Shown here: positions 2,396 to 48,276 of the stretch, one piece after another
Position numbering within the stretch: position 1 is the first letter of the stretch
Layout: the number at the start of each line of letters is the position of its first letter
Assembly (NCBI GenBank): GCA_021029095.1
Contig: JAJOHG010000010.1
Coordinates: 124,001 to 188,000, forward strand
Length of the DNA: 64,000 nucleotides
DNA from: Phellopilus nigrolimitatus
Lineage: Eukaryota; Basidiomycota; Agaricomycetes; Hymenochaetales; Hymenochaetaceae
Reading direction: 5' to 3'
Notes under the pieces: model-generated
What the model was told of the DNA's origin: nothing
Database searches by the model: none
Seen by the model: the letters and a program-made list of their open reading frames with translations, nothing else
Position numbers and translations under genes: made by a program

Positions 2396-2888
2396 ATAGC
2401 CTACAACTTAGATCTGGAGGCTATAGCGTCGCGAATACGAGTTCACGAGGAGATCCGTGGATTTATTTCCGAGCAGCGTCTGGAGGCCATTCCGGACCCA
2501 CCAACTCACGGCCAATTCGCCCGACTTCCGCTCGAGAAACATGACGAGTTCATCGGGCAGTCCGCTCAAAAACAGGCGGAAATTTGGTATGCCTTCTCCT
2601 ATAGTATTGCTAATACAGTTTATGCCCATAATACATGCTTCGCTCTTCCACAGGTGCGATGACGATTACTTCTCCGACGAGGTCGCTAGCGAGGGTGACA
2701 TCGAGATCGCAAATGACCCTTCACTCGCAGAATACGACAATTTAGAATCTGGGGGCGAGGAGGCTGCGATCGTGGGCCCTGCTAGGAACAAGGGCAAAGA
2801 TCTTGAGTCTGATGTCGAGTGTGAAGAGGTTGAAAAGCTAATTGGGACTCCGGGGACCAGCGCGAATACGAACAGCACAAATACATGA
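2396..2888 (+). pseudogene. Start-lost copy of the 140-residue acidic NLS protein gene
   Basis: Two exons, 2396-2586 and 2654-2888, with intron GTATGC...CACAG between them, are collinear with the intact right-arm gene at 36105-36594 (exon 1 has the same 191-nt length). The codon aligned with that gene's start is ATA instead of ATG; otherwise the frame is open to TGA at 2888. The second exon is rich in Asp/Glu and has a basic G-P-A-R-N-K-G-K stretch. Either translation starts elsewhere or the copy has lost its start. Function unknown. Confidence 0.6.
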
Positions 2889-3112
2889 GATGGAAGGGAG
2901 TGAAAAATTGCAATTCCCGGCGAGAAAGGAGATATCTGTATGTAGGAGGTCATCTGTACTGCGTAATCATTTGAGCAATGTAGTACCTGTGCTCAAAAGA
3001 CCACGCTGCAAGCTTTTCGGTGGCTCATTGTGGCTTATTATTACATAACCCGTCTGCGAGCCGCAGCAATCAGTGGCTCAACCGAATTCGGATGCCGTCC
3101 GAAGTTGCCGGT

Positions 3113-3176
3113 CTTGCACAATGAACACAAAGAACACCAGGGTGACGCGGATGAAAAAGCCGGGCTCTAAAAGGGG
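3113..3176 (+). promoter_or_regulatory. Shared upstream motif and TATA-like box
   Basis: CTTGCACAATGAACACAAAG at 3113-3132 is followed by A-C-C-A-G-G-G-T-G-A-C-G and a TATA-like CTCTAAAAGG near 3166. The block is about 90-150 bp upstream of the ATG at 3265. It is repeated in reverse at 35849-35868 before the right-arm copy and, with changes, at 43721-43740 before the third intact relative. Confidence 0.55.
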
Positions 3177-3264
3177 GGAAATCTTCATCTCCTCCTGCAA
3201 TTACAACGACCACTTCCACAATCCACCATTAACAACATCTCACCTTCCACAAGCCACTGCATTA

Positions 3265-4506
3265 ATGTCTGTAGCAGTCGAAGAACGCATTGTTTCCGAG
3301 GCCTCTAGAGGTCTCAGTGAGCGTGCACGGCAAGCCGAAGCAAAGACTAGGGCCGAGCCACCGTCTCCAAGAACGATGTCCCGGGTTTTGTCTAAGCCTG
3401 GGTACAGGCTCAGGGAACTGAGCCACAGAGAACTAGGTTCCCTCACTGCGGTGAGCTTTTCCTCTTTTCTCGCTTGCCGACATAGCTCGCTCAAGAAGCG
3501 CTTCCTTTTCCCTATCGGCTTGTAGGAATACAACAAGCAAATAACAAAAAGGAATGCCCTCATAGACCGGCTGGTCAAGGAGCGGAAAGCGGAGCTCGAG
3601 TGCGTCGGCTTTCCTTCGCACATTCATTTCGTGCTGACGATAACATACAAGTGCGGTTGCCTGCTGCAGGAGCGAAGAGGAGGAGGACGCGAGTGGCTAC
3701 GATGGAGGAGACGAGAAGGGTGACGACAAAGAAGGCCAGGTATATGACGAGGATACCGACGAGGAAACCGACGAGGAGGGGAGAAATATTGCTGATTATC
3801 CCGCGTCCGCTGTCGAAGGCAGCTCCGACATTGACGCTCAAGAGGTCGAGGCTGCACTCACTGTGCGCGTACTGAAGAGAAAAGCAGAGTCGGACGAGAA
3901 TGATGAACCCGCATGCAGTGAGCCTTCAAGGATATTCAATGTCCATCGATGCGCACCTAACGAGTCAGCTCCACACACAGTTAAACGGCTACGGCCGGAT
4001 GGCTCTCCGGCCAAGCGGATATTGACAGACTCTCGCAAGGCCAACCAGAACGTCCCCCGCGCACTGCGACATGTCGTATGGCGCCACCGCAAGAGTCGAG
4101 GACATTCGGCGTCGCTTGCCACCGTTTTTTCTGGGTAAACCGCCGTCAATGCTCGCCAGCCCGGCGCACGCTTCGAGGTCGAGCTTCAAGGATCTTTCTG
4201 GATCGGAAGCTCATCTTTGATGATGCGAGATTGATAGAGCTGGCAGGAACCCTGCGGGGGAGGAGGAGTCGGCAGATCATAGACGGAGGGGATATAGATG
4301 TGCGCACAACACGAGCGACAAAAACCGTGCCTTGGGAGTCGAGGAGAGAAGGGAGACGAGGGAGAATTCGACTGACTGAACGAGTGAGAAGATATTTGCA
4401 TAAATATTATGGGAGGGAGGCTCTGGAGGTGAGCCTGCGCCGGGGGGCGTCAAAGGAATTCGGTGCTAGTGATCATGATTGCGAGCCTCTTGTTGATGTG
4501 GAATAA
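3265..4506 (+). CDS. Acidic, NLS-bearing hypothetical protein (left-arm copy, intact)
   Basis: Four exons join without a break: 3265-3450, 3526-3599, 3670-4134 and 4191-4506, giving about 346 residues. Donors are GTGAGC, GTGCGT and GTAAAC. Residues 1-86 are helical and charged, with K-R-N-A-L-I-D-R-L-V-K-E-R across exon 2, resembling the end of a SAP DNA-binding motif. Exon 3 opens with a long Glu/Asp run, then a basic V-L-K-R-K-A-E stretch that looks like a nuclear localisation signal, then an Arg/Lys-rich tail. Exon 4 ends R-G-A-S-K-E and C-E-P-L-V-D-V-E; AATAAA overlaps the stop codon. Exon 2 is 74 nt here, in the right-arm copy and in the relative at 43282-43355. I do not recognise a family; a nuclear DNA- or chromatin-binding role is inference only. 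Confidence 0.7.
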
Positions 4507-4834
4507 AATTTGCTGTGATGCACTGCTGTATCGGATTCTCCTGCTGAATCAGTATATACGAAGATCCTGCATATACTTGATGGTTATGTTCTTCGTGCTT
4601 GAAGATAAGAAGTTGAACTAATCAGGTTGCGGTTGAGTCGAATCCAAACGTCGTTACTCGATCTTCAACTGCTGTACCACTGTATTACGTAAGCGAGTCG
4701 CGTGCTCTCGGTCTCTCTCGTTACTGCTCGTCTTTTGTCTTCTCACTTTTGCCCCGCCATTGGTACTATAGTGCCGCCGGTCATGCAGCGCTGCGCAGTA
4801 CTCGAACCCACAAGCACACTCTTACGCGTTCACG

Positions 4835-5230
4835 CGTCATAGCGACCTTTCTTGTCCCGTCGCTGTGAACGCGCACCGAAAAACGTGCACGTAGGAGGCT
4901 CATCAAAAGTGGTTGGACTGCGCGGAGGAGATGGTCTCTGACAGTGAGCTTCTTCATCGCCGTTCAGAATACACCCGTGTTTATAACGTACAAACTCTCT
5001 GAAAGGAAGGCATGCCAGCTGCATGTCGAAGGTGCCCGTGGACGCGCACACTATCCTGCAAGCGACCATGCACCCTCTCGAGCTCGGACTCTCGTACCTC
5101 CTCGCACCAGGCCCGTTACGTGCGTCTATGTACCTCTACACTCTGTGAGCCCCGCGGGTCTCGGATCCCGGAGTTGGCAGCTCTTGACGGGTTGAAAGCT
5201 TACGTAAAGTGGGCTAGATGCAACTTATAG
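4835..5230 (+). pseudogene. Frameshifted copy of another family member
   Basis: A basic exon ending at about 4939 (T-E-K-R-A-R-R-R-L-I-K) is followed by an intron (GTGAGC from about 4940) clearly homologous to intron 3 of the gene at 42650-43582. The next exon starts near 5006 with A-C-Q-L-H-V-E. The right-arm copy (about 34.0-33.83 kb, minus) reads on in frame through V-P-V-D-A-H-T-I-L-Q to a stop. Here two bases are missing after GTCGAA, which shifts the frame, so this copy is probably dead. Confidence 0.45.
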
Positions 5231-5639
5231 GACGGCCGTGCTGTATGAGCTGAATGGGGCGCAGCTCTCCGTACTGATTTGGATTCTAGCTTTTGCTTCT
5301 CTGCATAAGCTACAATATACAAAATAAAATAAAAACTTCTATCGTCCTCTTCGGATAAATACATAAAACAGAGCTTTGCGTCTACAGTCTCTGAAAAGCT
5401 GCATTTTACTCGCAGACGATGTCCTCCAACCACCATCGTCACGACGCAAGGGAAGTAAAAGAGAAAAGTCATCGCACCGCAAAGCGACTGACAAAGCAAT
5501 GAGGACAGAGGTAGGGACGTCAAATCGAAGCCGTCAGCTTGCGAAGATCAGTGGCCAGTCGCACACGCGTCTCGTCCCTTGTTCAATGACCATCGCTACT
5601 ACTACATATTAAACAGGAATTACCACTACCACAGCCCGT

Positions 5640-6844
5640 TAGCACATCCCTCTCGCAAAAAATCACAGGTCCTCTATCGAATCATACGATGACGATGTTT
5701 GGCCAGCCGTAAGCGCACAGTCTACCAGAGCCTTCATGGAGCGGGCTAGACAAGTAAGCGCATAGTACAGGCCCGGACCGCCATCGCAAAGCACGATGGA
5801 CTGGGTGTAGTCGCTACCAGGCTACATGCTTGGAAAGTGGTACCGAAAATAACTAGGTTCTTTCTCCACGGTGGCCCCTCCTCCCTTGCCGCTCTCCGTA
5901 TGTCGCAATCCCCAATGTGCCGCCTTTGCACTCCCGCTTGCATAACATAACAGACAGACGAGAAGACGCAAGCACAAAGATCGGCTAGCCGGGGATCGGA
6001 AAGACAAACTGAGTACGCCTGCCTCAGGTACGAAAAAAAAAGTAGAAATAGGCAGTCATGACTCCGGCGACGAAAAGAGTGATGAAAGGGAAGAAGATAA
6101 CGAGGAATATAACGAGGAATATAACGAGGATAATCCGAATGGTGACCCCGTGTTTGCCCCCAGCGGCAGCTCTGGCGACGAAGCTGAAGAGGGTGAGGCC
6201 CTGCTTGAACAGCACAGTGGAATGGGTGGAAGGCGCCGGCGGAACAATCCACAAGTAGCACGTGTCCCTTCCCGCACGACAACTTTGTACCCATCTTTTT
6301 ACTGCACTTCTAAGCCTAGAACTGAATGAAAATTAATACCTCATCAGCATCGAGTCCATGCGTGCACAAAAATCAAAATCCGCGATTCGACGACGCTCAG
6401 CTTACGCGGGTTGTAGCAACCTCGCGTGTCGCTAACAGATGGGTGACTATGATACTCCCGCCGCTATTCCAGTCACTGTCGAAAAATAATGCCAGGTCCC
6501 GAACGGCGCCTGTGGAGCTCGCCGTCGAGCAGGCGGGCGTGTACCCGTAAATTATGTAGGCGCTTGATCATCCCTTGAAAGAGCTAGTTACAGCTCTGGT
6601 CAAGACGATTGAGGAAAGGAGACGGATCTCTCTTTAACAGCCGCCAGAACCGGGGGGCCATGGAATCCGACAGAGTAGGAGGATGCGAGAGGCGGGAACC
6701 AGTGTGGATCGACGAGAAGGATTGAGAAGATGTACGAGCGAGCGACGGCGGCTTTTATTAAGAAAGGAGTGGGGGAGCGTGGTGTATGAGCCTGCGAGAC
6801 ACCTAAAGAAGATGTCAAAGACATCGGATGCTCGTGAGTCGTGA
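5640..6844 (+). CDS. Acidic family member with C-terminal EPARxLKK box; exon structure incomplete
   Basis: Exon-like pieces are conserved with the right arm (about 32.6-31.1 kb): a segment I-A-K-H-D-G-L-G-V-V-A-T-R near 5785-5830 (right arm I-A-K-H-D-G-P-I-V-V-A-T-R), then from about 5960 a frame with R-R-R-K-H-K-D-R-L-A-G followed by a strongly acidic run with two N-E-E-Y repeats, then a basic G-R-R-R-R-N-N-P-Q stretch, closing at about 6320. A downstream frame ends Y-E-P-A-R-H-L-K-K-M-S-K before TGA at 6844; its link to the acidic exon is uncertain. The box is shared by at least eight other loci here. Boundaries, start codon and integrity are unresolved. Confidence 0.4.
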
Positions 6845-7199
6845 GCCTTCTATACTAGCTTCTAATCTCCAACTTTTGTGGTGAATCGAAGGGTTTGACT
6901 GCTGTACTGCCGGATAGTCACAATTAGTAGGTCCTGCACGTACGATGACAGATTAGCAGATAGGAAGGCGAAGGATTGTAGTTTTGGAGTACTAAAAACG
7001 GATCATTGCCGCAAATCTCTAGTTTGCATTTGTATTAGAGTTTTTGGAAACAAAATTATGTATATGTACATCGTTTGACCAAAATAGAGGAAGTACATAC
7101 AGTAGCACTACAAGCGAAACACACATAATACGTATGTGTGCTGCATGGAATTGAATTTATAGCGGACACAGGTCACCATATGGAAAATACCGCGGGGGT

Positions 7200-8535
7200 C
7201 TGTCCTGCAATGACGCAGTACCGCTATCACGTCCGCATCCCGCATCTAGAGCACGGCACGCCCCGCCCCCCAAGTCACTGACGCAGAAAACACCCGCTCC
7301 CGGACGCCGAAGCCTGAAGCAGAGTTTAAGCCAAATATTGAGACAACGCACGCACGGAGCCGCCAGCGGGATGGGCGGTCCGTGCGCGCTCGTCTGCGAT
7401 CCTGTCTGAACTGCGCTTCAGGCGCCGGAGCACACGGAGTCGCGGGCACTTGCCGGTGTGAGCTTGGTTTTTCTTTTCACGAAGGCAAAGGCTTCCGTTA
7501 CTGGATGGCGCGCTAGGTCGTGAGGAGAAGTGGCTCGACAGGGAGAGCGGGGAGAAGGAGTGAGCAGATCAGTAAGCGAAAATAAGACCAGGAATATCTG
7601 CTTTCCCCGAACATTTTTGTATCTCGCATACCTCGCCACTTCAACATGTCTGCAGCAATCGACAAGACCCTATCTTCGGACTCCGACTCGAGTGCTGCGC
7701 CGGGGAGACGGCTGTAGCTGCGCTCCAGGAACCCGAAAGGAGGATACTTTTCGAAGAGGTCGACTTCGGCGGCACGACCAACGAGGCCTGCCGAACCGCG
7801 AGAGCTCTCTTCATCGCCGTGATTAAACTCGCCTGCGGTCTCCTGGTACATGCACAAAAATAATCACGAGAAAACACTTCAAAACCACATACGCACGCGC
7901 ACAGCGAGGGGGCTGGAGGCCGTAGCGCTGTCGTATATCGCGCATCGCTCATGACTCCGACGGCAGACTGACGTAGGAAGCGGAACTCACTGTGGCTCGC
8001 AATCGACACGAACCAGTTCAAGTCTGAACATGCGATGCGGCGATTAAGACAGAACTAAGGATAAAAACACGTGAGTGCGCTGGCCGTTCGACCTGTCGCC
8101 CTCCGAGGTCAACTCTCTACATCCCTGGATACCTGAGCGTCTCGCCCCGGCCGCGTCTACCGATAGTACGGAATCAAAGAAAAGAAAGAGGGATTACAGC
8201 GACACCTTCGACGCGCCAGACCAGTATCAAAAATGCAGGATTCGAGAGTGACGAACCAAGACCGGCATTGAACTTGACAGTGCCGCTCTGAGGGATATTG
8301 CGTTTGCTCATCGGTTTTCCAACGATTCCGAAGCAGACAGTAGGTGGGGGACGCGGACGGAGACTGGGGTAATTTCGGAGATGCGGGGCAATTCTTGATG
8401 AGCTATATGTACATGCAAACAAGGATGGGTTTTTATGGGGATGGGGACGGCGAGCCTGCGAAGCACCAAAAGAGGCCGTCAAAGGAAATGGCGTCAGGCA
8501 TCTGTGAGCCTTTCGTTGTACATAGCCGGGTTTAA
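7200..8535 (+). CDS. Divergent family member with EPAKxxKRxSKE box; probably decayed
   Basis: The 3' end is clear: a frame ending at 8535 contains G-E-P-A-K-H-Q-K-R-P-S-K-E followed by C-E-P-F-V-V-H-S. The right-arm copy gives A-E-P-A-R-R-L-K-R-S-S-K-E and C-E-P-P-L-Y-I-G. Upstream, T-D-A-E-N-T-R-S near 7277 matches T-N-A-E-D-T-R-C in the right arm and ends at a donor-like GTGAGC at 7459. An ATG at 7646 opens M-S-A-A-I-D-K-T-L with a Ser/Asp run but stops at 7717. The arms are alignable, yet no single uninterrupted exon chain could be built, so the copy may be a pseudogene. Confidence 0.35.
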
Positions 8536-9337
8536 GTGTTCTGTACTTGCCACTTCGTCAGCTGAAGCCACGAACCGCCGCGTACAGAGCTCAAGGGTTT
8601 TGCCATTGCCGCCTGGTAAAATGGCGATTGCCGTTGGCAATACGCATCGCGATATTCTTTTCACCTGTAATTTCGGCTCCGGCTGGCAATTTATTCTTAA
8701 AATTACCTTTCCGGGAAATAGTTTTATTCTTACCAATGCCTTTTCGAGGTCTAAAAAGGAATATTGAGCCTATTACGTACAGTCACATGCCAAAAGTTTA
8801 TGCCGGGTGTGACATCCATGTAACTCTCGAAAAGTTTTTGCTCCATTACTCCACAACCACAAAATATATTGCCAATCTAATACTTGGTGGATCCTCCTCT
8901 GACCTCCAGTACCTGCTCCATGTGTTTAGGCATGCTAGAAATAAGAGAATTAATTATTTTAATGACAATCTTCTCACACTCCTTCAAAAGTGCCCTCTTT
9001 AATTCCTCCTTGTTCTGAGGGGTTTCTAGTCTTTTCTGATTGCAATTTTTGTCAGATACGGAAGATGTCCAATAGGGTTCATGTCTAGTGATTGAGCCAG
9101 GAGGGGAAATGGCTTCAGGAAATTGCTGTCCTTGATTATTTCTGCTGCATTGGATTTGTGAATTGGTGCCCCATCTTCCATGACCTTTACAACCCATTTC
9201 TTCTCATAAAATGCCAAATAAATGCCCCAGAGGGATCCTTTTATGATCAATTCCACATAAGCATTGCTCTTTTGTCTAACCTTGGGCATAAAAATGAGTG
9301 GGCCTTCTTTTTATATGCAATGCACCTCAAATCATAA

Positions 9338-9842
9338 TGTTAGAACTTACCTTGCTTACCTCACGATCCCCCTTACATCATTCCTTCCTCGCTTAGTCAG
9401 GCCCTTCACCTTTCCATTATCTTTCCCTTAGTTCATGGCCTGACCCCTTCCTCATTATACACGCCCCTCTTAGGCGTTCCCCGCTCCACGCTCCACTGCC
9501 TCATTCCATGCTCCACAGTACACGCCCCTTACGGGCCTTTCCCTCACGATCCCCTCATGTCATGCTGCGCATGACTCCATAGCTCCACTGACATCATAGT
9601 CAGTCTCACAGTATATATAGGTACATCGCTGGGACCTTAAGCCCCAGCTTGACCTCCTTGTTCAGTAGCTAGCATAGTCTTGCTATTCATCGCCTTGCTC
9701 TTCATACTCTTGCGCCCAGCGCTTCACAGTCTTGCCATAGTCATCGTCGCCTTGTCACAGTCAAGCCTCACGTCACTCGTCACATCACTGTCCACAGTCA
9801 CGCTCCTCGCTCCATTAGGCAAGACCCTGTTACTCCGTAACA
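9338..9842 (+). repeat. 5' LTR of the outer Ty3/gypsy element
   Basis: This 505-bp LTR has TG...CA termini. A TATATATAG box lies at 9611-9619. The sequence AGCTTGACCT at 9646-9655, about 35 bp after the TATA box, is exactly complementary to the sequence just inside the LTR (9845-9854), suggesting the transcript starts near 9646. U3 would then be 9338-9645, and R plus U5 9646-9842. Confidence 0.9.
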
Positions 9843-9844
9843 TT

Positions 9845-9854
9845 AGGTCAAGCT
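9845..9854 (+). other. Putative self-priming primer-binding site
   Basis: AGGTCAAGCT, two bases after the 5' LTR, is the reverse complement of AGCTTGACCT at 9646-9655 in the LTR. In Tf1/sushi-type chromoviruses the 5' end of the element's own mRNA folds back to the primer-binding site and primes minus-strand synthesis instead of a tRNA. The geometry fits that mechanism; it is inferred from sequence only. Confidence 0.55.
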
Positions 9855-10808
9855 CTCTTTTGATTGTCGACGTATCAACGTCTAGACAAAATTTCTACCC
9901 TACCCAAACTCCCCGCTAACGCGGTCTGGCCCACCGATCAACCCTACCCAACTGCGGGAACCTATCCACTCACCCTCAGAAGGAGATCGGACGGACGAAT
10001 TGCCTGGAAAGTATTTCTTGAAGGAGGCGACCCACACACCGAACTTTTATACCGTTACCACGAATTTGGAATCCTCCAAAACGTCCGACCCCGCGAACAC
10101 TCAAGCCGACCTATCGAAATACCAACGCCACCACAGCATATCGACCCTGTTGACGTAATCACTCGATCGTTATCTCAAACATCGCTTGACGACAATTCCA
10201 CTGCACCACCTCACGTTCCTACTCGACCAAATACTCCACCACAGACCACAGTACCGACCGTCACACCAAGCCCCACCATGAGCACCAAAGAAATCGCATT
10301 CGCCAAGCCCCCTGACTTCGATGGCAAGCGCAGCAATGCCCAATACTTTTGGGATGCCTGCCAGGCCTATCTACGAGGCAACAAGGACATCTACAAGACC
10401 GATCTGCACAAAATCACGTTCGTCCTTTCATTCATGAAGACTGGTTCAGCTGCTACTTTCGCCAGCAATAAGTACAAGACATACACGGACACGGCAGAAT
10501 ACGGAACCTGGGCAGACTTCGCCAAAGCCTTCGACGCCCAGTTCCTCCCTGTCAATGCCAAACAGGATGCGTCATTTGCAATCGCCAATTGCAAACAGGA
10601 CGACGATGTCGACGGCTTCATCGCTACATTCAAGAGTCTCGCCCTCCAAGCCGGGTTCACCCAAGAGGAACCCCTCATCGAGTACTTCCGCCGAGGTCTC
10701 AAATCCAGCATTGCAGACAAGATCTACAATCGAGGCGAGCCTACTACACTCGAAGGATGGTACACCGAAGCCAGCAAAGCCCAACAGAACCTACGACGCC
10801 AAGCTGAG

Positions 10809-11236
10809 TGGAAGGCACCCAGAGAGTGCCAACACTTGAGCCTACAAGACAAACAGGACAAAGTAATCTTTGTTGCTGTCAGAGATACTCTAAATACATA
10901 CATGAGACGCATTTACTCACCTTTGTTGCTGTCAGAGATACTGAGGCAACAAAGGTGACGGCGCGCAGTGAAAATGGGTCAGATTATATAATAAAAACTA
11001 TACAGTACCAGTCCGACAGGGATCCGACCCTTATTACTCTTGAAGTACGTAAGCCGACTTTCCGACAAGTTGGGAAAGTCGGAAATGCGAAAACGTCGGC
11101 CGAAACGTCGGCTCAAAAAACGTCGGCTCAAAAACGTCGGTCGGTCAAAAACGTCGGCCGGTCAAAAACGTCGGAACGTCGGCCGGTCGGACACACATTG
11201 TGTCGGAAATGGGAAGAACGCGCCAGCGGGCTTACA
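10809..11236 (-). repeat. 3' LTR of the inner element
   Basis: This 428-bp LTR is a direct copy of 16572-16999. It contains a perfect 13-bp inverted repeat (10917-10929 and 10946-10958) with a 16-nt loop, a repeated segment CTTTGTTGCTGTCAGAGATA (10868 and 10921), and a run of AAAACGTCGG-like units at about 11090-11190. Confidence 0.9.
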
Positions 11237-11260
11237 CCCTTCCCCCCTCAAAAGAATAAG
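11237..11260 (-). other. Polypurine tract of the inner element
   Basis: On the minus strand, T-T-T-T-G-A-G-G-G-G-G-G-A-A-G-G-G lies directly against the first base of the 3' LTR. This is the position and composition expected of the plus-strand primer of a retrotransposon. Confidence 0.8.
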
Positions 11261-11327
11261 CCCCTCCTCCGAGAAATAAGGTGAACCAGGAAAAGGGGTA
11301 AAATAAATCAAAAATTAAAAGAAAATC

Positions 11328-14300
11328 TCATCTTCTTCGCGGCCGCGGTGGAGCCCCCTCTCTCCGATCCCACCGTCGGACTATATCCGCTGCCGTCTGC
11401 TTGAGCTCCGAGCGTGATTTCCACTCCATTCCCTGGTCGCCGTACCCCTTCCACCGGACCAGCAGTTGGGTGCCGCGGCCGCGCTTCCGTTCATCCACAA
11501 TTGCCTCCACCTCGTACACATTCGCCTCCGGCTCTACCGGGTCTGGTCGCTCGAGTTGTCGGGTTGGGAACAGTGCGTCATCATTTGGCACAAAACGTCG
11601 GAGCTGGCTAGCATGAAACCCGGGGAACGCTTGGCTGTGATCGGGGAGCTCTAATGTGTACTCCGACTTTTCGGGGTGCGCAGCGATGATAAAGTACGGT
11701 CCGTCGTACCTGGGCATAAACTTCGCGACGCGATCTTGTCCGGCCGCCTTGTACTCCCGCCGCCGGTTTCGGGTTGAGAGCATAACCTGGTCTCCGACCT
11801 TGAAAAGGTCGTCGGCCGCCCGCTTCTTGTTCGCATGGTGCGCCTGTCGGGTTTTGGATGCCAGAAGTGCATCCTGCGCTTCCGACACATCGCGCTGCAA
11901 CTGCTGCATCAACTCCATGGCCTGAACCGCCTCCGCCCCCTCCGCCTGAAATTCTGCTTCGCGCTCCGGCACGATTGGCGGAATCATCCTTGGTGAGTGG
12001 CCCTGTCGGATTTGGAATGGCGTGAAACCCGTCGACGCATTCACCGTGTTCATGATGCAAAATCGGACCCGTGGCAATGCTCGCACCCACTGGTTCTGGT
12101 TCCGATCCACATAGTAGCGGAGAATCTGGTTGACTGTTTTATTCGTCCGCTCGCTCGCTCCGTCGGTCTCCGGATGGTACGCGGTCGACATCTTCACCTT
12201 GACTCCGGTGAGGGTGTGCAACGCCTTCCAGAAGCGTGAGACAAATAGCTTGTCTCGATCCGAAATGATTTCGAGCGGAAGTCCATTTTCGCAGTACCAG
12301 TGGTTGAAAAACACCGCCGCGAACTGTTCGGCCGTCATTTCCATGCGAATGGGCACGATCCGCACGTCGGCCGCTCCGAGCCGATCCGTCATAGTGACAA
12401 TCCCATTATAACCGCCATCCTCCGGCAACGGTCCGACAAAATCGAGCGCGACACTATCAAAGCGCTTGTCAGGGATCGGGAGCGGGTGCAGCGGACCTGC
12501 GGGTTTTGTGGTCGGACTTTTGTTCCGCTGGCAGTCCGCACAGCCGGGAACATACGCCGACTCCAAGTCCTTTCGCATGTTCGGCCAGTAGTAAGAGTTG
12601 CGGAGCGCCGCGTAACTCTTGTCGGGCCCGAAGTGGCCAAGTTCGTCGTGCGCCAGCCGGTACAGTGTCTCGCGGATGTCGCCCTTCCTCGGAATCACCA
12701 ACCGCTCACCCACAAACAACAACTCATTCTCTTCTCGCGCGCCTTCAATACTCCGCACGTTTGCCCGCAACTTCACGCAGAACTCATCTTCTGCATACCC
12801 GCCGCGGATCTTCTCCAGAAGCTCCGGGTCCGACGCAATGGTGAGTACTGCCGCTGCAGTCGGCGCGTCGGAAAACTTCGGCATACATGCAAGTCCCACC
12901 GCCGCCGCCATTGGGGAGTCGTCCGATGTTTTTGGATACCGCGACATCGCGTCGGCCGCCGAGTTTTCTTCGCCTTTCACGTACTCGATCTCGAACTCGT
13001 ACTGTGCCAAAAACTCGGACCAGCGGGCCTGCCGACGCGAGAGATCCTTCTGTTGCTGGAAGTAGGTGAGTGTTCGATGGTCCGTGATCACCTTGAATGG
13101 CATTCCCAAAAGGTACACCCGCCACTTCTTCAACGCGCGGACGATCGCCAAAAGCTCCTTCTCGTGCACCGGATAATTCTTTTCGGCCGCGGTATACTGA
13201 GCCGACTCGAATGCAACCGGTCGGGCCGTCTTCCACGACTCCCCGACACTCAAAACCGCCCCTGTCCGATGGTCCGATGCATCCGTGGTCACAAAAATCG
13301 ACTCCCCCGACTCGTGGTCTACCGTTGTTAGGCATTCGCGGCTGGTCACAATTTTCTTGATCGCATTGAAGGCAGCCTGGTGCTCTGAAGTCCACTTCGG
13401 AAAATTGCGGTTGTACTCTTTCTTGGTAAGCGGCGTCAATACCGACGTATACTCTGCCAGTTTCGGAAGAAACTGGGAAATGTATCGGACCAGGCCCAAA
13501 AACGCGCGGACGTCCTTCGTCTTCTGCGGAGTCGGCCAGGCAAGGATCCGCGCGACCTTCGACGGATCCGCCTCAATGCCACGTGCCGAAATGACGTGCC
13601 CGAGAAAAACAACTTCTGCGCAGTACAAGTTCGTCTTCTTGGGCGAGCAGAAAAGTCCGGCCGCCCGAAGCGCCAACATTACCAAATGTACGTTCCGAGT
13701 GTGCTCCTCCACCGACTCGGACCAGATGATAATGTCGTCCAGGTACACATGGCAAATCTTTCCGATGAGATGCTGCAGGGCCGCATACATCCGACGCTGA
13801 TGTGTCGCAGGCGCATTACAGGCACCCATCGGCATGACTAACCACTCATACAGGCCGAACGGCGTGTTCACCGCCGTATACGGCACATCGTCGGGGTGCA
13901 TGCGGGTTTGGAAGAATGAATTCGTCATGTCGATCTTTCCAAAGATCTTCCCCCGCGCACAGTCATTCAGGATCTCCTCCACCCGCGGCAGTGGAGTCCG
14001 ATCGCGCACCGTGTTTGCGTTCAACTCCCGATAGTCGTTCACCCAGCGGGGCAGCACGTTCGGATCCGACTTTGGGATAATAAATGCCGGGGACGCATGC
14101 GGACTGTCCGAGCGTCGGATCCGACCCGCCTCTACATGCTGGTGAATGAGTATCCGCCATGCATCTCGATACTTCTTCGGAGTTGCATAGGTGCGACCCG
14201 ACAATGTCTTGCCCGCATCCTTCAGCTTGATGCGATGGAACACATTGTCGGGCAGGTCGCGGAGGTGTGGCAGCTCTTCTGGGAATCGGTCGGCATACTT

Positions 14301-16331
14301 CTCCTTCGCCCGTGCATCCAATTCCGCCAACTTGTCACTGAATGCCAATATCAGGATTCGGTCACGGATTGATTGCATTACCGACACCGCCTTCACCTCT
14401 GGCGGCAGGTTCGTTTGTGCACCATTCTTCGGAGTCGGAATGTGGCATACAAATGGCGCATGGTGGATCGGACCGCACGCGGGAAGCTTACTGGACACTT
14501 TCCGAATCGACTTCCCTCGATTTCTGGCTTCACGCGTCTTCTCCGACACCTTCCGCGCCGAAATCTTCGATTTCGTCGGCTCCGCAGTCGGGCTCGGTGT
14601 CGGTGTCGGCGGAGGCTTGGGATGCATGAGATCCACTCCGGACTTCTTGGCAATGAGCGTCCGCTCGGCGGCATCGTGCACAATGTGGTTGGCCACCAAG
14701 AATGTCATTCCAAGTATCAACTTCGTACATAAGTTCGGCGCAACTTTGGCGCGGACCGACTTCGCCTCCCAACTCCGATCCTTCGACATCACCCGCACGC
14801 GGACCCACTCTGTCAACTCTATCGGCTTCGCCCCTTCCTGATTCAGTGCAAGTGTCGCCGACTCCGGGTTACGTAAGCGGTGGCGTCGGAGTCGGAGTCG
14901 GTCAGCGAACTCGGGACTAATCAGCACTGTAACACAGCCAGAGTCAATGAGCGGTCGGATGAGAAGCGAAGACGCGCGGTCTCGCGCGGAGATGAAACAC
15001 TCAGGTCGGAGATGGGGCTGGTGAAATGGCACATACTTGTCGGACTCCGACTCCGACGTTTCGCCTTCAGAATCAGAGTGCTGTTCTTCCACGAACGCCG
15101 CGACAGGTTCAGTCTTAACCCGCGCCGACTCGTTCGCGCTGCCCGACGGGTTCGGCGGTGCGGCCATGGCCATGCTCTCCGTCAGTGGCTTGTAGTCCTT
15201 GCGGCGCACTGGCCCGTTCGGACAGTTTCTGGCGTTATGTCCGGCCTGGAAGCGCATACACTTGTAGCACCCGTTGTACCGCTGGAGCAGGAGCCGCTCC
15301 TCGTTATTCGGTCGGACCGTGGCTCTCTGGTCGGCTCCGGGGTTCGAGGATCGGGTGGTGTTGCCCTGACTACCTGCCGACCCTCCCGACTTTCGCTGTG
15401 TCGCGGGTTCGCGCTCCCGGTCGGTCCGACGTTTTGCTCTGTCGGACCGCACTGCAGTCTCGCTGGCAAGGCGGATGCGGTCTTCGTTGCGGACCCGACG
15501 CTCATCCATTGTCTTCACATGTCCCAGCCACTCTCTCATGCGCAGTCGGATCACCTGTGCTTCGGCTGGCGGAGCCGCTGGGGCCGGGATAGTCACCCAC
15601 TGGCCAGGTGGTGTCGCGGCCTGTGCGGCGGCCGCTCCAACCAGGTTGGCCGCGCGGATCTGACGCTCTTCGGCCTCATACTTGGCTCGGAGTACTGCGT
15701 GGGGCTCGGTCAGGGTCGGGGGTTGTACCCGTATCATTTCTTGGAGGTCCGGATGCATATTCGCCTCCAGGAACTCCCGGAGTCGGTCTTCCGACATGCG
15801 CGTGCCTGCCGGGAGCACCGAGTTCTGCGTACTGACTTCGCGCTGCCACTCCCAGAACTGCGCCGCACCCTGACGGGAAGCCAGGAGCTTCTGCCGCTCA
15901 AGCGCCACCCAATCGACCGGCAGCGCTTCCTGTCGGAACTCGGCCACAAATTCCGCCAACGGAAGTGTGCTCACCCGGGTGTAGTCCGACATAATCCACT
16001 CCGCAAAACGCGGGTCCATGATCCCTCCGACCACCGCTGCCACAATCTGATCATCCCTCAACCCTTTGGTTGCTTGATACGCCCGCACCCTTCCAAACCA
16101 CTCCATCAACGTTCGGGGTGTCGGATCACCGGCCGTTAGCAACGGGACTTTCGTCGGCCCCGCCCACTCAATCGTCGCAAGCTGTGCGTTCGGTGGTGCC
16201 ATTTTCGGTGGTTTCACGTCTTCGGTTTCGGATTCGGACACGTGTGGTGTTGTACTGCGGTCGGATGCGGAGTCTTCTGTGTTCGAATCCGGCGGTGGTG
16301 ATGGTGCGCCGAAAATATACTGATCCGGCAC
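11328..16331 (-). CDS. gag-pol: Gag-Pol polyprotein with chromodomain (inner element), intact
   Basis: This is a single open frame of 1667 residues. Approximate order: Gag (1-380) with zinc knuckle C-Y-K-C-M-R-F-Q-A-G-H-N-A-R-N-C near 354, whose CX2CX6HX4C spacing is unusual (the norm is CX2CX4HX4C); aspartic protease L-I-D-S-G near 460; reverse transcriptase with Y-L-D-D near 862; RNase H T-D-A-S-D near 1013; integrase HHCC zinc finger near 1230-1265 and DDE residues in L-D-F-V-G-P, I-S-D-R-D-K and G-A-S-E-R-T; and a C-terminal chromodomain (Y-E-V-E-A-I-V-D and L-V-R-W-K-G-Y) near 1607-1650. Gag and Pol are fused without stop or frameshift. The chromodomain probably targets integration to modified histones. 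No disabling change was seen. Confidence 0.95.
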   Translation of the reverse strand: MPDQYIFGAPSPPPDSNTEDSASDRSTTPHVSESETEDVKPPKMAPPNAQLATIEWAGPTKVPLLTAGDPTPRTLMEWFGRVRAYQATKGLRDDQIVAAVVGGIMDPRFAEWIMSDYTRVSTLPLAEFVAEFRQEALPVDWVALERQKLLASRQGAAQFWEWQREVSTQNSVLPAGTRMSEDRLREFLEANMHPDLQEMIRVQPPTLTEPHAVLRAKYEAEERQIRAANLVGAAAAQAATPPGQWVTIPAPAAPPAEAQVIRLRMREWLGHVKTMDERRVRNEDRIRLASETAVRSDRAKRRTDREREPATQRKSGGSAGSQGNTTRSSNPGADQRATVRPNNEERLLLQRYNGCYKCMRFQAGHNARNCPNGPVRRKDYKPLTESMAMAAPPNPSGSANESARVKTEPVAAFVEEQHSDSEGETSESESDKYVPFHQPHLRPECFISARDRASSLLIRPLIDSGCVTVLISPEFADRLRLRRHRLRNPESATLALNQEGAKPIELTEWVRVRVMSKDRSWEAKSVRAKVAPNLCTKLILGMTFLVANHIVHDAAERTLIAKKSGVDLMHPKPPPTPTPSPTAEPTKSKISARKVSEKTREARNRGKSIRKVSSKLPACGPIHHAPFVCHIPTPKNGAQTNLPPEVKAVSVMQSIRDRILILAFSDKLAELDARAKEKYADRFPEELPHLRDLPDNVFHRIKLKDAGKTLSGRTYATPKKYRDAWRILIHQHVEAGRIRRSDSPHASPAFIIPKSDPNVLPRWVNDYRELNANTVRDRTPLPRVEEILNDCARGKIFGKIDMTNSFFQTRMHPDDVPYTAVNTPFGLYEWLVMPMGACNAPATHQRRMYAALQHLIGKICHVYLDDIIIWSESVEEHTRNVHLVMLALRAAGLFCSPKKTNLYCAEVVFLGHVISARGIEADPSKVARILAWPTPQKTKDVRAFLGLVRYISQFLPKLAEYTSVLTPLTKKEYNRNFPKWTSEHQAAFNAIKKIVTSRECLTTVDHESGESIFVTTDASDHRTGAVLSVGESWKTARPVAFESAQYTAAEKNYPVHEKELLAIVRALKKWRVYLLGMPFKVITDHRTLTYFQQQKDLSRRQARWSEFLAQYEFEIEYVKGEENSAADAMSRYPKTSDDSPMAAAVGLACMPKFSDAPTAAAVLTIASDPELLEKIRGGYAEDEFCVKLRANVRSIEGAREENELLFVGERLVIPRKGDIRETLYRLAHDELGHFGPDKSYAALRNSYYWPNMRKDLESAYVPGCADCQRNKSPTTKPAGPLHPLPIPDKRFDSVALDFVGPLPEDGGYNGIVTMTDRLGAADVRIVPIRMEMTAEQFAAVFFNHWYCENGLPLEIISDRDKLFVSRFWKALHTLTGVKVKMSTAYHPETDGASERTNKTVNQILRYYVDRNQNQWVRALPRVRFCIMNTVNASTGFTPFQIRQGHSPRMIPPIVPEREAEFQAEGAEAVQAMELMQQLQRDVSEAQDALLASKTRQAHHANKKRAADDLFKVGDQVMLSTRNRRREYKAAGQDRVAKFMPRYDGPYFIIAAHPEKSEYTLELPDHSQAFPGFHASQLRRFVPNDDALFPTRQLERPDPVEPEANVYEVEAIVDERKRGRGTQLLVRWKGYGDQGMEWKSRSELKQTAADIVRRWDRREGAPPRPRRR

Positions 16332-16571
16332 CGAAGGGACCTCTCTTGGGATCGCTGAGAAGGCCTGCCGCGCGGGAACTCGAAGTCGCGTTACTGGCGC
16401 TATTTTGGGATCAAAGTCAATCGGACTTGATCGCCACGTCCGGACAGTCGGTCGGGACGTCTACTGTGACCCGCGAAGACGCGCAAGGTCGAAACTCGTC
16501 GGATCGCGGCGAGGGAGGTGCGGAAACGCGCAAGGGGCAAAGATACGCTTTGCTGATGTTAAAAAAAAAAG

Positions 16572-17513: not shown

Positions 17514-17523
17514 GGGTTTTTAA
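17514..17523 (+). promoter_or_regulatory. Putative -1 ribosomal frameshift site at the gag stop
   Basis: The gag frame reads GAG-GGT-TTT-TAA. The heptamer G-GGT-TTT (17514-17520) fits the X-XXY-YYZ rule for simultaneous -1 slippage and lies directly on the gag stop. A -1 shift enters the frame TTA-AGA-AGG, which is open without interruption into pol. This would produce a Gag-Pol fusion. Confidence 0.65.
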
Positions 17524-17603
17524 GAAGGCAGCCAGCATCGACGTCTGCACTGCCTAGTATTTCGATTTCTCCTGTAATCATAGCCGAACATGCCCACAAT
17601 TCC

Positions 17604-34170: not shown

Positions 34171-34449
34171 TTGTGGGTTCGAGTACTGCGCAGCGCTGCA
34201 TAACCGGCGGCACTATAATACCCATGGCGGGGAAAGTGAGACGAGCAGTAATCGAGAGACCGAGGACAACGCGACTCGCTTACATAATACAGTGGTACAG
34301 CAGTTGATCGAGTAACGACGTTTGGATTCGACTGATGAGTTCAACTTCTTATCTTCAAGTACGAAAGCCATAACCATCAAGTATATGCAGGATCTCCGTT
34401 ATACTGATTCAGCAGGAGAATCCGATACAGCAGTATATCACAACAAATT

Positions 34450-35709
34450 TTATTCCAAATCGACAAGAGGCTCGCAATCGTGATCACTAGCACCGAATTC
34501 CTTTGACGCCCCCCGGCGCAGGCTCACCTCCAGAGCCTCCCTCCCATCATATTTATGCAAATATCGTTCTGTCAGTCGAATTCTCCCTCGTCTCGCTTCT
34601 CTCCTCGACTCCCAGGGCACGGTTTTTGTTGCTCGTGTTGTGAGCACATCTATATCCCCTCCGTCTATGATCTGCCGATTCCTCCTCCCCCGCAGGGTTT
34701 CTGCCAGCTCTATCAATCTCACATCATCAAAGATGAGCTTCCGATCCAGAAATATCCGGGCTGGACCTGAAGCTCGAGCTCGACTTTGGAGCAAGCGCCG
34801 ACTGCGCGGACCGTAAGCGGGCATTGACGGCGGTTTACCCAGAAAAAACGGTGGCGAGCGACGCGAAATGGCCCCGACTCTTGCGGTGGCGCCATACGAT
34901 AGGTCGCAGGGCGAAATGGACGTCCTGATTGGCTGTGCGAGAGTCTGTCAATATGCGCTTGGTCGGAGAGCCATCCGGCCGTAGCCGTTTAACTGTGTGT
35001 GGAGCTGACTCGTTAGGTGCGCATCGATGGACATTGGATACCCTTGAAGGCTCACTGCATGCGGGTTCGTCATCCTCGTCCGACTCTGCTTTTCTCTTTG
35101 GCATGCGCACAATGAGTGCAGCTTCGACCTCTTGAGCGTCAATGTCAGAGCTGCCTTCGACAGCGGATGCTGGATCATCAGCAATATTGCTCCCGTCCTC
35201 GTCGGTTTCCTCGTCGGTTTCCTCATCATATACCTGGCCTTCTTTGTCGTCACTCTTCTCGTCTCCTCCATCGTAGCCACTCGCGTCCTCCTCTTCTTCG
35301 CTCCTGCAGCAGGCAACCGCACTTGTAGGTTATCGTCAGTACGAAATGAATGCACGGAAGAAAGGCCAGCGTACTTGAGCTCCGCTTTCCGCTCCTTGAC
35401 TAGCCGGTCGATGAGGGCATTCCTTTTTGTTATTCGCTTGTTATATTCCTACAAGCCGATAGGGAAAAGGAAGCGCTTCTTGAGCGAGCTATGTCGGCGA
35501 GCGAGAAAAGAGGAAAAGCTCACCGCAGTGAGGGAACCTAGTTCTCTGTGGCTCAGTTCCCTGAGCCTGTACCCAGGCTTAGACAAAACCCGGGACATCG
35601 TTCTTGGAGACGGTGGCTCGGCCCTAGTCTTTGCTTCGGCTTGCCGTGCACGCTCACTGAGACCTCTAGAGGCCTCGGAAACAATGCGTTCTTCGACTGG
35701 CACAGACAT
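34450..35709 (-). CDS. Acidic, NLS-bearing hypothetical protein (right-arm copy, intact)
   Basis: Exons 35709-35524, 35448-35375, 35303-34839 and about 34783-34450 join in frame to about 352 residues. Exons 1-3 have exactly the lengths of the left-arm gene (186, 74 and 465 nt). Features match: charged helical N-terminus with K-R-N-A-L-I-D-R-L-V-K-E-R, an Asp/Glu-rich block with tandem D-E-E-T repeats, basic M-P-K-R-K-A-E, V-K-R-L-R-P, and C-terminal R-G-A-S-K-E. The last acceptor differs from the left copy because of an indel, so that junction is the least certain. Preservation of open frames in both arms despite substitutions suggests the protein is, or was until recently, functional. Confidence 0.7.
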
Positions 35710-35848
35710 TAATGCAGTGGCTTCTGGACGGTGAGATGTTGTTAATGGTGGATTGTGGAAGTGGTCGTTGTAGTTGCAGGATGAAGGAGGAGATGAAGAT
35801 TTCCCCCCTTTTAGAGCCCGGCTTTTTCATCCGCGTCGCCCTGGTGTT

Positions 35849-35868
35849 CTTTGTGTTCATTGTGCAAG
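35849..35868 (-). promoter_or_regulatory. Shared upstream motif (right-arm copy)
   Basis: On the minus strand CTTGCACAATGAACACAAAG, followed by A-C-C-A-G-G-G-C-G-A-C-G and a CTCTAAAAGG TATA-like site near 35815, lies about 140 bp before the ATG at 35709. Same arrangement as at 3113-3176. Confidence 0.55.
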
Positions 35869-36104
35869 ACCGGCAACTTCGGACGGCATCCGAATTCGGT
35901 TGAGCCACTGATTGCTGCGGCTCGCAGACGGGTTATGTAATAATAAGCCACAATGAGCCACCGAAAAGCTTGCAGCGTGGTCTTTTGAGCACAGGTACTG
36001 CATTGCTCAAATGATTACGCAGTACAGATGACCTCCTACATGCAGATATCTCTTTCCTCATTCCCTTCTCGCCTGGAATTGTATTTTCCAACCCCTCTCT
36101 CATC

Positions 36105-36594
36105 TCACATATTCGTGCTTGTCGTATTCGCGCTGGTTCGCGCAGTCCCAATTAATTCCTCAACCTCTTCGCACTCGGCGTCAGACTCAATATCGACGTC
36201 CTTACGCTTCCTAACAGGATCCACAACTGCAGGCTCCTTATCCTCAGATTCGAGATCGTCGAACTCAGCAAGCGGAGGGTCGTTTACAATTTCGATGCTC
36301 CCTTCGCTAGCGACGTCGTAATCACTGTCTTCGTACCTGTGGAAGAGCGGAACATGTGTTATGGTCAAATACTGTATCAGCAATACTATGGGAGAAGGCA
36401 TACCAAATTTCTGCCTGTCTCTGAGCGGACTGCCCGATGTACTCGTCATCTTTCTCGAGCGGAGGTCGGGCAATTGGGTCGTGAGCTTGTAAATCCGGAA
36501 TGGCCTCCAGACGCTGCTCGGAAATAAATCCACGGATCTCCTCGTGAACTCGTATTCGCGACGCTATAGCCTCCAGATCTAGGTTATAGGCCAT
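36105..36594 (-). CDS. 140-residue acidic NLS protein (intact copy)
   Basis: Two exons, 36594-36404 and 36336-36105, with intron GTATGC...CACAG, give 140 residues. The N-terminal 60 residues are helical (L-D-L-E-A-I-A-S-R-I-R-V-H-E-E-I-R). The last part alternates acidic runs with P-V-R-K-R-K-D-V, an NLS-like core. The exon junction falls at the same place as the exon 2/3 junction of the larger relatives, just before the acidic block, so this is a short family member lacking the Arg-rich tail. The left-arm copy has ATA for ATG. Confidence 0.65.
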
Positions 36595-36648
36595 GGCTCA
36601 CTCTGTGATGTTAGTAGTTGAAGAAATGGAGAGATCTCTCGTCGTTCG

Positions 36649-36673
36649 ACTTTGTGAAAGTTCATTGTGCAAG
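36649..36673 (-). promoter_or_regulatory. Shared upstream motif before the 140-residue gene
   Basis: The minus strand has CTTGCACAATGAAC followed by TTTCACAAAG, a diverged form of the family motif, about 55-80 bp before the ATG at 36594. Confidence 0.4.
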
Positions 36674-37269
36674 CTCGGCAACTGGCGGTGTCCGATGTGG
36701 CTACTGATTTGGTCCCATTATTACGTAGACGCATTATTTCGTTCATACCGCGAGTTTGGCAATTGACAAGACCTTTGTAGCGTTTGCTTGTCCCTGCATA
36801 TCGAAAGCGAGACTGACACATAGACTATGATTGAATCAGAAGTGATCCAAATGTGAGCGCTGGAACGCCGAAAGGTGGCCTGCTCTGAGCTTACTATTGT
36901 CTTACTGAAACGCTGGAGTACCAGCTCAGCATTCATACGGTGTTACAGCAATCCATCTGATATCGAAGTGCTCGCCACTACGACGCAATACGTACGGTGC
37001 TCACCAAGTTCGTCGCGTCACACAAGGCCAGCAGTAATAAGCTTCTTGTTTTTTTTTCTTCGCAAGTGGCTTGTAGGCAATCAACTTGTAAGGCGGTCTT
37101 CTCTGGAAATGGTCACTATAAAAACTAAATTGGAGTATTTCCGGCTAATATTGGCGTTGACACACCTGTTTTTGCCCCAGTTAATCTAGTCTTGCTGAGA
37201 TTTCAGTCACTCACACGACAGGCATGTACCTGTCCTCGTTGGTGCAGTGTCCGTCGTGTATGACTTCTA

Positions 37270-42649: not shown

Positions 42650-43582
42650 TCACTCTTCAGTGTCCGTATCGCCGTCAGGTACCCAGTTATATATCTTTTC
42701 GGTCGACTCGGTTGCCGCGCCGATCGTCCAGTCAAAAATGGGCTTGAGTGGACTCGGCCATGGACCTGGATCCAGGTGCAAGCCGATGTAGAAAATGGGG
42801 TGTCTGCCATCGATGATGAGTGTCGATGTCGCTCCAGGAGGCAACGGAATCCAGTGCGTGACAGCTTTGGCTGGCGGCGAGGGCGGTAGCGAGGACGATA
42901 GCGGCATAGGAGATGGTACAGGTGGCGGGGGCGCGTCCGCGTTGGAGTCCGCCAAGATCCGCTTTTTCAGGCTCAGAATTGGTGTGTCATCTTGTGGAGA
43001 TTCATATTTCAGAAACGCAGGCGTATCGTGGGCAGCGATGATGAGACTCACTGTCCGGGTCCATTTCGTCCGCCTTCCGTTTTCTCACAGCGGGCACTTG
43101 GGGCATAGCCCCAGGATTTTCCTTGCTTGCGGAGCCCGAACCGGAGGCGGAATTGGAGTCGGCCACTTCGACATTCTTATCATGGTCGTCCAGATTGTCC
43201 TCGAGCCTGCAATGGACATCACAATGGCGTCAGCATACGATGTATAAGCAGTAAGCACGAGACGGCAGCACCATAACACACCTGACTTCCGCACGCCTTT
43301 TGAGAAGCCGCTCCAATATTTCATTCCCCGGTCCTATTGCCTTCAGGCCATGCTCCTACAAACGAAACCGTGCCAATCAGCAACTAGCGGCGACAGTAAT
43401 AGCGATGTAAGACTCACCTTTTCAAGTGTCCGCAGTGTATTGTATTTCAGCTTCTTCAGCTGTCCCTTAGGTGGAATCGCTGCGCCGTGACCCGGAGTTG
43501 ATGCCTCGAGTACCATCGAGTCATAAGCGGGCTTGCTTTGTTGTGCTTCAGGTGCACAGGTCGTGATCATTTGGGGGGACAT
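42650..43582 (-). CDS. SAP-like, NLS-bearing hypothetical protein (third intact family member)
   Basis: Four exons, 43582-43418, 43355-43282, 43206-43052 and 42990-42650, give 244 residues with correct phases. Residues about 39-78 (K-G-Q-L-K-K-L-K ... L-E-K-E-H-G-L-K-A-I-G-P, then E-I-L-E-R-L-L-K-R-R-A-E) resemble a SAP helix-turn-helix DNA-binding motif split by the intron. An acidic D-N-L-D-D-H-D follows, then V-R-K-R-K-A-D-E (NLS-like), a second basic L-K-K-R-I-L, a Pro-rich linker and a conserved tail with G-P-W-P-S-P-L-K-P-I-F-D-W. Exon 2 is 74 nt as in the arm genes. A relative at 47.9-48.3 kb shares the tail as G-W-P-G-I-I-R-P-V-S-D-W. A nuclear DNA-binding role is inferred from composition only. 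Confidence 0.7.
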
Positions 43583-46200: not shown

Positions 46201-46299
46201 GTGCCTTACACAGACGTATGCGGGTGACTGTTGGGCGGGCTCGTAGTTGGGTGTGGAGACGAGGCTGGCGCACCGATCATTAAGAACTGTGGATCACGA

Positions 46300-46947
46300 A
46301 TGTTGACTGCAGATGTAAAATACGTAGGCGGCACTTGGGCACTTGAGAGTCATGAAAGAATGCGGATCCTTGAGCCAACAAAAGAAGATACCGTAAGAAA
46401 AGAAAAGGGACTCACCAACAGTAACCTGTTCACCATCCGAGTCCGACTCCTCTACCTTGTATTTTCTCAGTGGTCCCGTATTGTGTTCCAAGGATTCGTA
46501 ACACATCCGTTTAAGTATTGCTGTCGTCGCTGTCGTCGTAGACGAGCTTGATGGTGAAGTTCAGCTAGTTTTCACCTTTTGCAACGGGCAGAAGGGATTA
46601 GACGGCTTGAGAGAGTCTGGAAAATGGAATACATGCTGGCCCAATGCTGACCAGATCATCCAACGGACCATGTTGATACAGCGATGCGTCGTAGCCAGTG
46701 AAAGTCGTCGGGCGCAATACCGACACCGTAAAAAAGATCACAAAAGATCATCTGTTCCTGTAAGTCATTGACCGGGAAAGCTACATGAAGAACGCCAAAG
46801 TTGATGAATGCAGCTAGAAAAAGAGAAGTGGTACACAAGTGCAGCGCCAACCGACGCGTACGAAGCCTTCGTGCCGGCACGTGTCGCGTTGCGCCCGAAT
46901 TCAACTTCCTCGCTCTCGTCAGACTCAGAACATAGACTCAGCCTCAT
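46300..46947 (-). CDS. Fragmentary family-like exons
   Basis: Two minus-strand acidic segments look like coding exons. One reads S-E-S-D-E-S-E-E-V-E-F-G-R-N (about 46930-46890) and leads, after a possible short intron, to A-F-I-N-F-G-V-L-H-V-A-F-P-V-N-D-L, ending at about 46656. The other is M-C-Y-E-S-L-E-H-N-T-G-P-L-R-K-Y-K-V-E-E-S-D-S-D-G-E-Q followed by donor GTGAGT at about 46416. Their style matches the acidic block of the family, but no full gene could be assembled. Confidence 0.3.
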
Positions 46948-47128
46948 CTGCTTTTGCTACTTCAAGACGTTCTCGGCACAGTTTTATTACTTCAGTCATC
47001 GTCGACGAACGCATAATCTACAACCATCAGCTACGTCCGAGTCTTCTTCCATCTTTGCGGCCGACGCTAAAGCTGCTCCGCTCAGTTGACAAGTGGCCAG
47101 AATACCTGACGAGCATTCAGCATCCGAC

Positions 47129-48276
47129 TTATGCTGCTCGTATGTCCGCAACGTCGATCAAACGCGTGTCGACGAATTTTATAAAGAAATCCGATTTAAC
47201 GAAGGCTGGATTAGTCGATTCCTTTGAAGCCTTTAATCTCGCAGGCTCAACTTCGCCCTCCATAAAAGGCCTTTATCATTCGCCCGTCCATCGCCATGAT
47301 CCCCACCATCCTTTGAGTCGTCTCAGTCCACTTAACCCCTTCCGTGTCGGCCAATTCCTCCAACTTGCGCCCGCGTATTCTTGTATTCGGCGTAAGTCTC
47401 AGCTAGAAACGACTTCGGAGTCACCTCTTCATTGGTCGAAAGGGCGGATACCGTCTGAGTCGCGAGCTGTAGGGAGAGCTACCTTGGTATCCAAGGGATT
47501 CCTGGGCAAGGGACACTGGCAGCGGGTGCCCCATGCTATTCCGAAAGCAGTGACCTTCGTGGAATGGCACGAAAACGTCATGCTGCTTCAGTCGGGCAGC
47601 AAAGCCACCTCGCCGCATGCGAGCAGAGGACGAGGGCATCCGGCACAGTCATTAGGTGGTCGGCGACTTGTCCAAGTGTTGTGTCGTTCAAATGATACTG
47701 CCAGTGCTCATGGAGTCGCTAATCTGTTCATTGACGCCGAGCGAGATCCAGTCAACGCGATCTGATTCTAACAAGCGCTACCCAAATCATTATTGCGCAA
47801 GACATGACACGACAAAAGATATACAAAATACTGCTATTAACACCACCTATCTCTCAACTACTGTCAGAACGGCTTCGGAATGAGCGACGGAGACCGAGAT
47901 GGAGATACAACGATAACCTTGCGACTTAGAGCGGGCATGTGTCAGTATCGTCAGGTTTTTGGGTTTTTGGTTGTAATTCTTCTCGGACGACACGTTCGCT
48001 GGCCCTTCTCCCAGTCAGAAACGGGCCTGATAATCCCCGGCCATCCACTTGGATCCTGCGTAAAAAACATGGTGTTCCACGTTGGTAATGGGTCCTTCCG
48101 TGCTCCAGGAGATGGCGGCGGAAGTTGCGTCGGGGTGTCAGGGATGAGATGACGGCAGTGGCTGAAGTGTCGGCGGCGTCGCCGGCAAATATGACAGCAG
48201 TGTCGGAAGTGTTCTGCGTTGTCTGGGATGACAGAGGTGGGGGCACATCGGTGTTGATGACATGTGGCACCGTCAC
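47129..48276 (-). pseudogene. Diverged family member at 47-48 kb
   Basis: A minus-strand frame near 48140-47965 contains P-P-S-P-G-A-R-K-D-P-L and G-W-P-G-I-I-R-P-V-S-D-W-E-K-G, matching the tail of the gene at 42650-43582. A separate 3' exon, V-E-P-A-R-L-K-A-S-K-E, ends at 47129. Between them, 47.39-47.9 kb is alignable with 42.25-42.65 kb in direct orientation. Upstream exons were not recovered and frames conflict, so it is likely degenerate. Confidence 0.4.

Follow-up and report, generated by a model that had tools for sequence, protein, structure and literature searches.

Here, we describe a family of small genes in the wood-decay basidiomycete Phellopilus nigrolimitatus (Hymenochaetales), based on a 64,000-nucleotide (nt) stretch of its genome (G000:C2:124001-188000, referred to as the window). 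The genome analyzed is 56.4 Mb in size, and a comparative paper gives 56.7 Mb and 14,792 genes for this species (PMC10410303). The window holds three gene types, here called A, B, and C, along with a relict D, a box that we take to be relict E, and a dead C-type copy. Most of them are arranged on the two arms of a palindrome, and a recurring 3' box, which reads EPAxxLKRxSKE in translation, accompanies many copies. An initial annotation had assigned all loci to one family; B, C, relict D, and a C-type tail are indeed related over positions 2396 to about 48100, whereas the inclusion of A found no support in profile comparison. The explanation that we consider somewhat better than evenly supported is that the genes form a family restricted to this species, which originated from a small protein with a SAP domain. 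The family features of the window are as follows.

2396-2888, + strand: A-type gene, left arm (A1); exons intact, start codon lost (ATA)
36594-36105, - strand: A-type gene, right arm; intact, 140 amino acids, single 67-nt intron
3265-4138, + strand: B-type gene, left arm (B1); exons 3265-3450, 3526-3599 (74 nt), and 3670-4138; 242 amino acids, 3' end uncertain
35709-34835, - strand: B-type gene, right arm (B2); 242 amino acids in the hand-spliced model; deposited with different splicing as DFH11DRAFT_1543322 (P0013), 291 amino acids
43582-42650, - strand: C-type gene; four exons, 244 amino acids, intact
48109-47939, - strand: C-type last-exon remnant; 62-65% identity to paralogs in the six best matches
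5697-6845, + strand: relict D, left arm (D1), a decayed B-like gene; box at 6788-6820
32445-31237, - strand: relict D, right arm, mirrored; box at 31255-31287
4431-4455, + strand: family 3' box, shortened, past the B1 stop
34501-34525, - strand: family 3' box past the B2 stop
8452-8484, + strand: family 3' box, probable remnant of a further copy (relict E)
29629-29661, - strand: family 3' box, relict E, right arm
47222-47248, - strand: family 3' box of a dead C-type copy

B-type genes consist of a first exon, a 75-nt intron, a 74-nt exon, a 70- to 71-nt intron, and an acidic exon with a KRK core, and C-type genes have a 74-nt exon 2 at the same point of the domain as in B; A-type genes have two exons. 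The 74-nt second exon that had been noted for three members is exact in B1, B2, and C, and the proposed acidic block and KRK core were borne out as well: residues 88-150 of B2 are 43% aspartate plus glutamate, and the core is present in 26/26 copies with a fully fetched exon 3, two further copies being truncated by the locus end. The members annotated as intact at 36105-36594 and 42650-43582 stand, the first with one intron and the second with a spliced protein identical to the deposited DFH11DRAFT_1877005 (100% over 244 residues). By contrast, the B-type members had been drawn as 3265-4506 and 34450-35709, while their frames actually close at 4138 and 34835, and the B gene ends are uncertain.

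The C-type protein of the window has a SAP-like region at residues 39-84, followed by RKRK (residues 121-124), KKRIL, a proline-rich linker, and an acidic tail. The Pfam SAP model matched 4 of 6 C-type members (best, 3.6e-5), and PF02037 matched 6 of 8 exact C-type N-termini; two of these (C446, 26.3 bits, and C17:55160, 25.8 bits) pass the curated cut-off of 23.9 bits, four scored 19.9 to 22.6 bits, and the remaining two had no PF02037 match. Among deposited proteins, 6 of 10 matched at 15.5 to 23.5 bits. PF02037 did not match the C-type protein of the window itself, and for the four window proteins Pfam returned weak, chance-like matches only, NCBIfam one meaningless match, and a sequence search of solved structures just a proline-rich stretch of two chains. 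Structure prediction of the SAP-like residues in the 244-residue member, which had been proposed as a check, gave a helix-loop-helix with many SAP neighbors. The AlphaFold model of P0001 contains helices at 39-43, 47-56, and 65-84, with block means of 86 to 90 over residues 41-80; after residue 85, the predicted local distance difference test score (pLDDT) is low and there is no helix. The predicted C-type fold thus has the helix-extended-loop-helix arrangement of SAP. Foldseek returned 33 matches, 16 of them SAP-bearing chains by our own count, for some of which we presume the SAP label (3'hExo, MKL1, Tho1, DEK, Hcc-1/SARNP, HNRNPUL1, PIAS1, and Ku70). Eleven SAP-type models and one B model had already been deposited independently. 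Taken together, the C subfamily is SAP-derived, and the SAP reading is correct for most C members. In four deposited proteins from C2 (P0003, P0006, P0008, and P0010), the SAP N-terminus is joined to differing second modules, which suggests tail shuffling or model errors. A SAP match at C2:287922 was rejected as a family member, being the product of another frame with, by eye, no KRK core and no intron within the SAP stretch.

The possibly SAP-like N-terminus that had been suggested for the family as a whole fares less well outside C. B-type proteins are encoded by exons split as in C and have a diverged SAP portion, without the SAP loop glycines, before the acidic block. PF02037 had no match in any B sequence tested, and a low-confidence AlphaFold model has a single long helix in place of the SAP region. 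The shared exon plan is the main evidence that B is homologous to C, and only through it is a SAP origin of B plausible. The A-type genes lack the 74-nt exon, and hhalign comparisons of A with B and C gave E values of 0.067 and 0.065 (probability, <1%); homology of A to either type appears unsupported at the sequence level, as does a SAP assignment. All 10 B genes identified are preceded by an A match at a distance of about 2 kb or less (5 on C2, 4 on C613, and 1 on C17).

A scan for exon 2 that tolerated lengths of 71, 74, or 77 nt and covered the window and 42 of 68 fetched loci, with most of the remaining loci overlapping these 42, identified the exact 74-nt exon at 28 places (10 B and 18 C) and none of another length. 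Each of these copies has an open frame, and all introns are GT..AG. Fifteen lie on contig C2 within 215 kb (45.7-260.4 kb), 10 on C613, 2 on C17, and 1 on C446; the total is a lower bound, additional exon matches being among those listed. C613 and C17 are collinear with C2 in gene order, and nine paired loci are about 90-99.7% alike (BLAST); because of this, we regard the two contigs as the probable alternative haplotype of C2. Matches on C54, C608, C30, C201, and C46/C60 are degenerate, with internal stops, some of which may be intronic, and no scored 74-nt exon. At three loci (L064, L060, and L061, on C608 and C30), a B-type relict was co-duplicated with a neighboring gene, presumably an alcohol dehydrogenase gene, at 93-98% identity over 5-10 kb. 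Neither a telomere nor a mating-type locus could be linked to the cluster: TTAGGG arrays gave 62 matches on five contigs and 0 on C2, the end sequences of which were not inspected, and 0/6 homeodomain and 0/18 STE3 matches fell on C2 in searches that scored the best candidates only.

Relatives in the database came from P. nigrolimitatus only, within reach of a homolog search that works by shared 5-residue words (1701, 7991, and 7995 candidates scored) and that distant orthologs could escape. Nothing in print on expanded SAP-domain families in Basidiomycota or fungi was found in a search of literature outside subscription. Within this reach, the initial proposal of an undescribed birth-and-death family is supported; the family is real, apparently restricted to this species and previously undescribed, and has a known domain.

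The 3' box also marks the family. Its DNA pattern (GAGCCTGCG-N8-20-TCAAAG) occurs 7 times in the window versus 0 times in 100 shuffles and 38 times genome-wide versus 4 times for a reversed control. For 28 of these 38 boxes, a family exon match is no more than 2.5 kb away, and the zone so defined makes up 0.4% of the genome; 9 others lie within 5.4 kb, and 1 is distant. Read as EPARxLKRxSKE, its variation is partly synonymous. It had been described as a C-terminal protein element, and as such it falls outside the intact protein models: the C-type gene of the window ends without it, and in B some 300 nt separate it from the stop codon of the hand-spliced model. In the five copies read (four C-type loci and the window copy at 47248), a stop interrupts the EPA frame a few codons ahead of the box, while in relict D1 this frame is open for about 50 codons upstream. 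The box is a true family hallmark located outside the intact reading frames, possibly a former exon or a 3' element.

Two lines of evidence point to selection on the copies. Mean pairwise ratios of nonsynonymous to synonymous substitution (dN/dS) were 0.35 for B (10/10 copies; bootstrap, 0.25-0.49) and 0.35 for C (16/18 copies; bootstrap, 0.22-0.51). Indels were multiples of three in 3/3 cases in B exons (8/10 copies) and 4/4 cases in C exon 3 (16/18 copies), though in 0/2 cases in C exon 1; control values were 6/16 and 12/31 upstream and 5/13 and 7/25 behind KRKAE, the latter region being partly coding. Two results weigh against the reading as a constrained SAP-derived family. Introns diverge no faster than nonsynonymous sites in many pairs, and the B-C profile comparison is weak (38 columns; E value, 0.019; probability, 2.5%). 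Because introns are as conserved as nonsynonymous sites in these pairs, purifying constraint is likely rather than proven. The same similarity of dN to intron divergence favors the most serious alternative, namely, that a few functional SAP genes are surrounded by many decaying, nonfunctional duplicates kept alike by gene conversion and not by selection. The degenerate copies on other contigs, the lost start of A1, and C-type tails that vary among copies and deposited models fit this account. However, it is at odds with the dN/dS values, with indels in threes in most exons, and with 28 open, correctly bordered exon 2 copies, and we regard it as possible but rather unlikely.

Spread by transposition, with the genes being transposable-element genes or cargo, is disfavored and in our view very improbable. 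The many copies, some of them scattered on other contigs, and weak inverted pairs around B (3186-3210/4909-4933; 72%) and A-B (534-549/5394-5409; 16 nt) would be in line with it. However, two C608 copies share 95% identity across about 5 kb including the neighboring gene, as in segmental duplication, the duplicated stretch (1680-5555) does not include the repeat arm at 534-549, and the repeat arm at 3186-3210 is not continuous in the right-arm copy.

The palindrome and the retroelements within it are arranged as follows.

1680-9337: palindrome left arm with A, B, D, and E; probable continuation at 23142-25046 past the retroelement
28140-37269: palindrome right arm
9338-23141: outer retroelement, presumably of the Gypsy type from its reading frames; 508-bp end repeats identical, CATAA target duplication at 9333-9337 and 23142-23146
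10807-17000: nested second retroelement with identical 431-bp end repeats

Positions 1680-9337 plus 23142-25046 mirror 37269-28140, from which we infer that the left arm continues across the insertion. Both retroelements look recent. On C613, the B genes are about 14 kb closer together, and the retroelement pair is therefore probably absent there. Small reading frames at 24006-24446 and 27616-28017 share similar membrane-type stretches by eye and do not mirror each other in the palindrome. Repeat patches that are self-complementary and related to one another are located at 54399-54602 and 58555-58804.

Between haplotypes, the right arm is 99.6-100% identical in its outer flanks, 97-99% near B, and 89-95% within B; the left arm is 94-97% identical in its outer part on one side, 81-87% at A, 90-96% at B, and 99% at the other end. 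Over window positions 4058 to 4630, approximately, B1 of C2 is >99% identical to the arm C613_106, while B2, the allelic partner of C613_106 by order, is only 89-94% identical. When polymorphic sites were shuffled, runs exceeded chance in 6/6 pairs, allelic pairs included (P, 0.0002-0.005), the longest being 39 sites shared by C2_B1 and C613_106 (3944-4209). Conversion between the palindrome arms is the simplest account of this mosaic. A selfish or recognition cluster, acting in meiotic drive or allorecognition with exchange creating diversity, would also suit mosaic tracts and right-arm haplotypes that are 97-100% alike outside B and 89-95% inside, but it is the least probable alternative, given that left-arm identity is lowest at A and leaves no clean B-centered island, that arm conversion accounts for the pattern, that no homeodomain or STE3 match among the best candidates scored lies on C2, and that dN/dS is <1. 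An equally remote extension is a rapidly changing nuclear system made up of linked A-B units and C genes, whose SAP-derived DNA binders and acidic partners would recognize or manipulate the opposite haplotype, either in the dikaryon or during meiosis, while arm exchange supplies variants.

For the SAP-derived family that we favor, birth-and-death evolution is the most likely mode, and the products are most likely nuclear proteins associated with DNA or chromatin. C-type proteins would enter the nucleus via RKRKA/E, their N-terminal SAP helix-extended-loop-helix would bind DNA or chromatin, and the disordered proline-rich linker and tail (PVSDWxxGAA...DTE) would be offered to partners. For B, the missing loop glycines, the long-helix model, and the acidic block suggest a pairing or histone-facing modulator and not a DNA binder. 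New copies may arise by segmental and inverted duplication, with conversion overwriting copies and many of them dying. A nuclear DNA-binding-type domain would thus be in rapid, species-restricted expansion in a wood decayer for which both haplotypes are apparently assembled, which allows the origin, exchange, and loss of such genes to be measured and supplies a set of minimal SAP proteins.

Similar to SAP proteins in general (PF02037), C-type proteins have a helix-loop-helix of about 35 residues with the pattern LxxL...HGLxxxGxxxxIxERLL, followed by a basic motif; in contrast, their domain is interrupted by an intron, after which comes a 74-nt exon, most tested members score below the cut-off, and B lacks the loop glycines. 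Tho1 is described as a small protein with an N-terminal SAP domain (PMC4909252). The family shares this layout with Tho1/SARNP(CIP29)/MOS11 but has no predicted or Pfam-matched C-terminal helical domain and consists of many clustered paralogs. A charged linker and a basic motif are further features in common with the Tho1/SARNP/MOS11 proteins. DEK chains from nucleosome complexes are among the Foldseek fold neighbors of the C-type domain, and DEK resembles the family in having acidic stretches; in contrast, DEK is much larger than the family proteins, and the C members with SAP matches show no Pfam match beyond SAP-type models.
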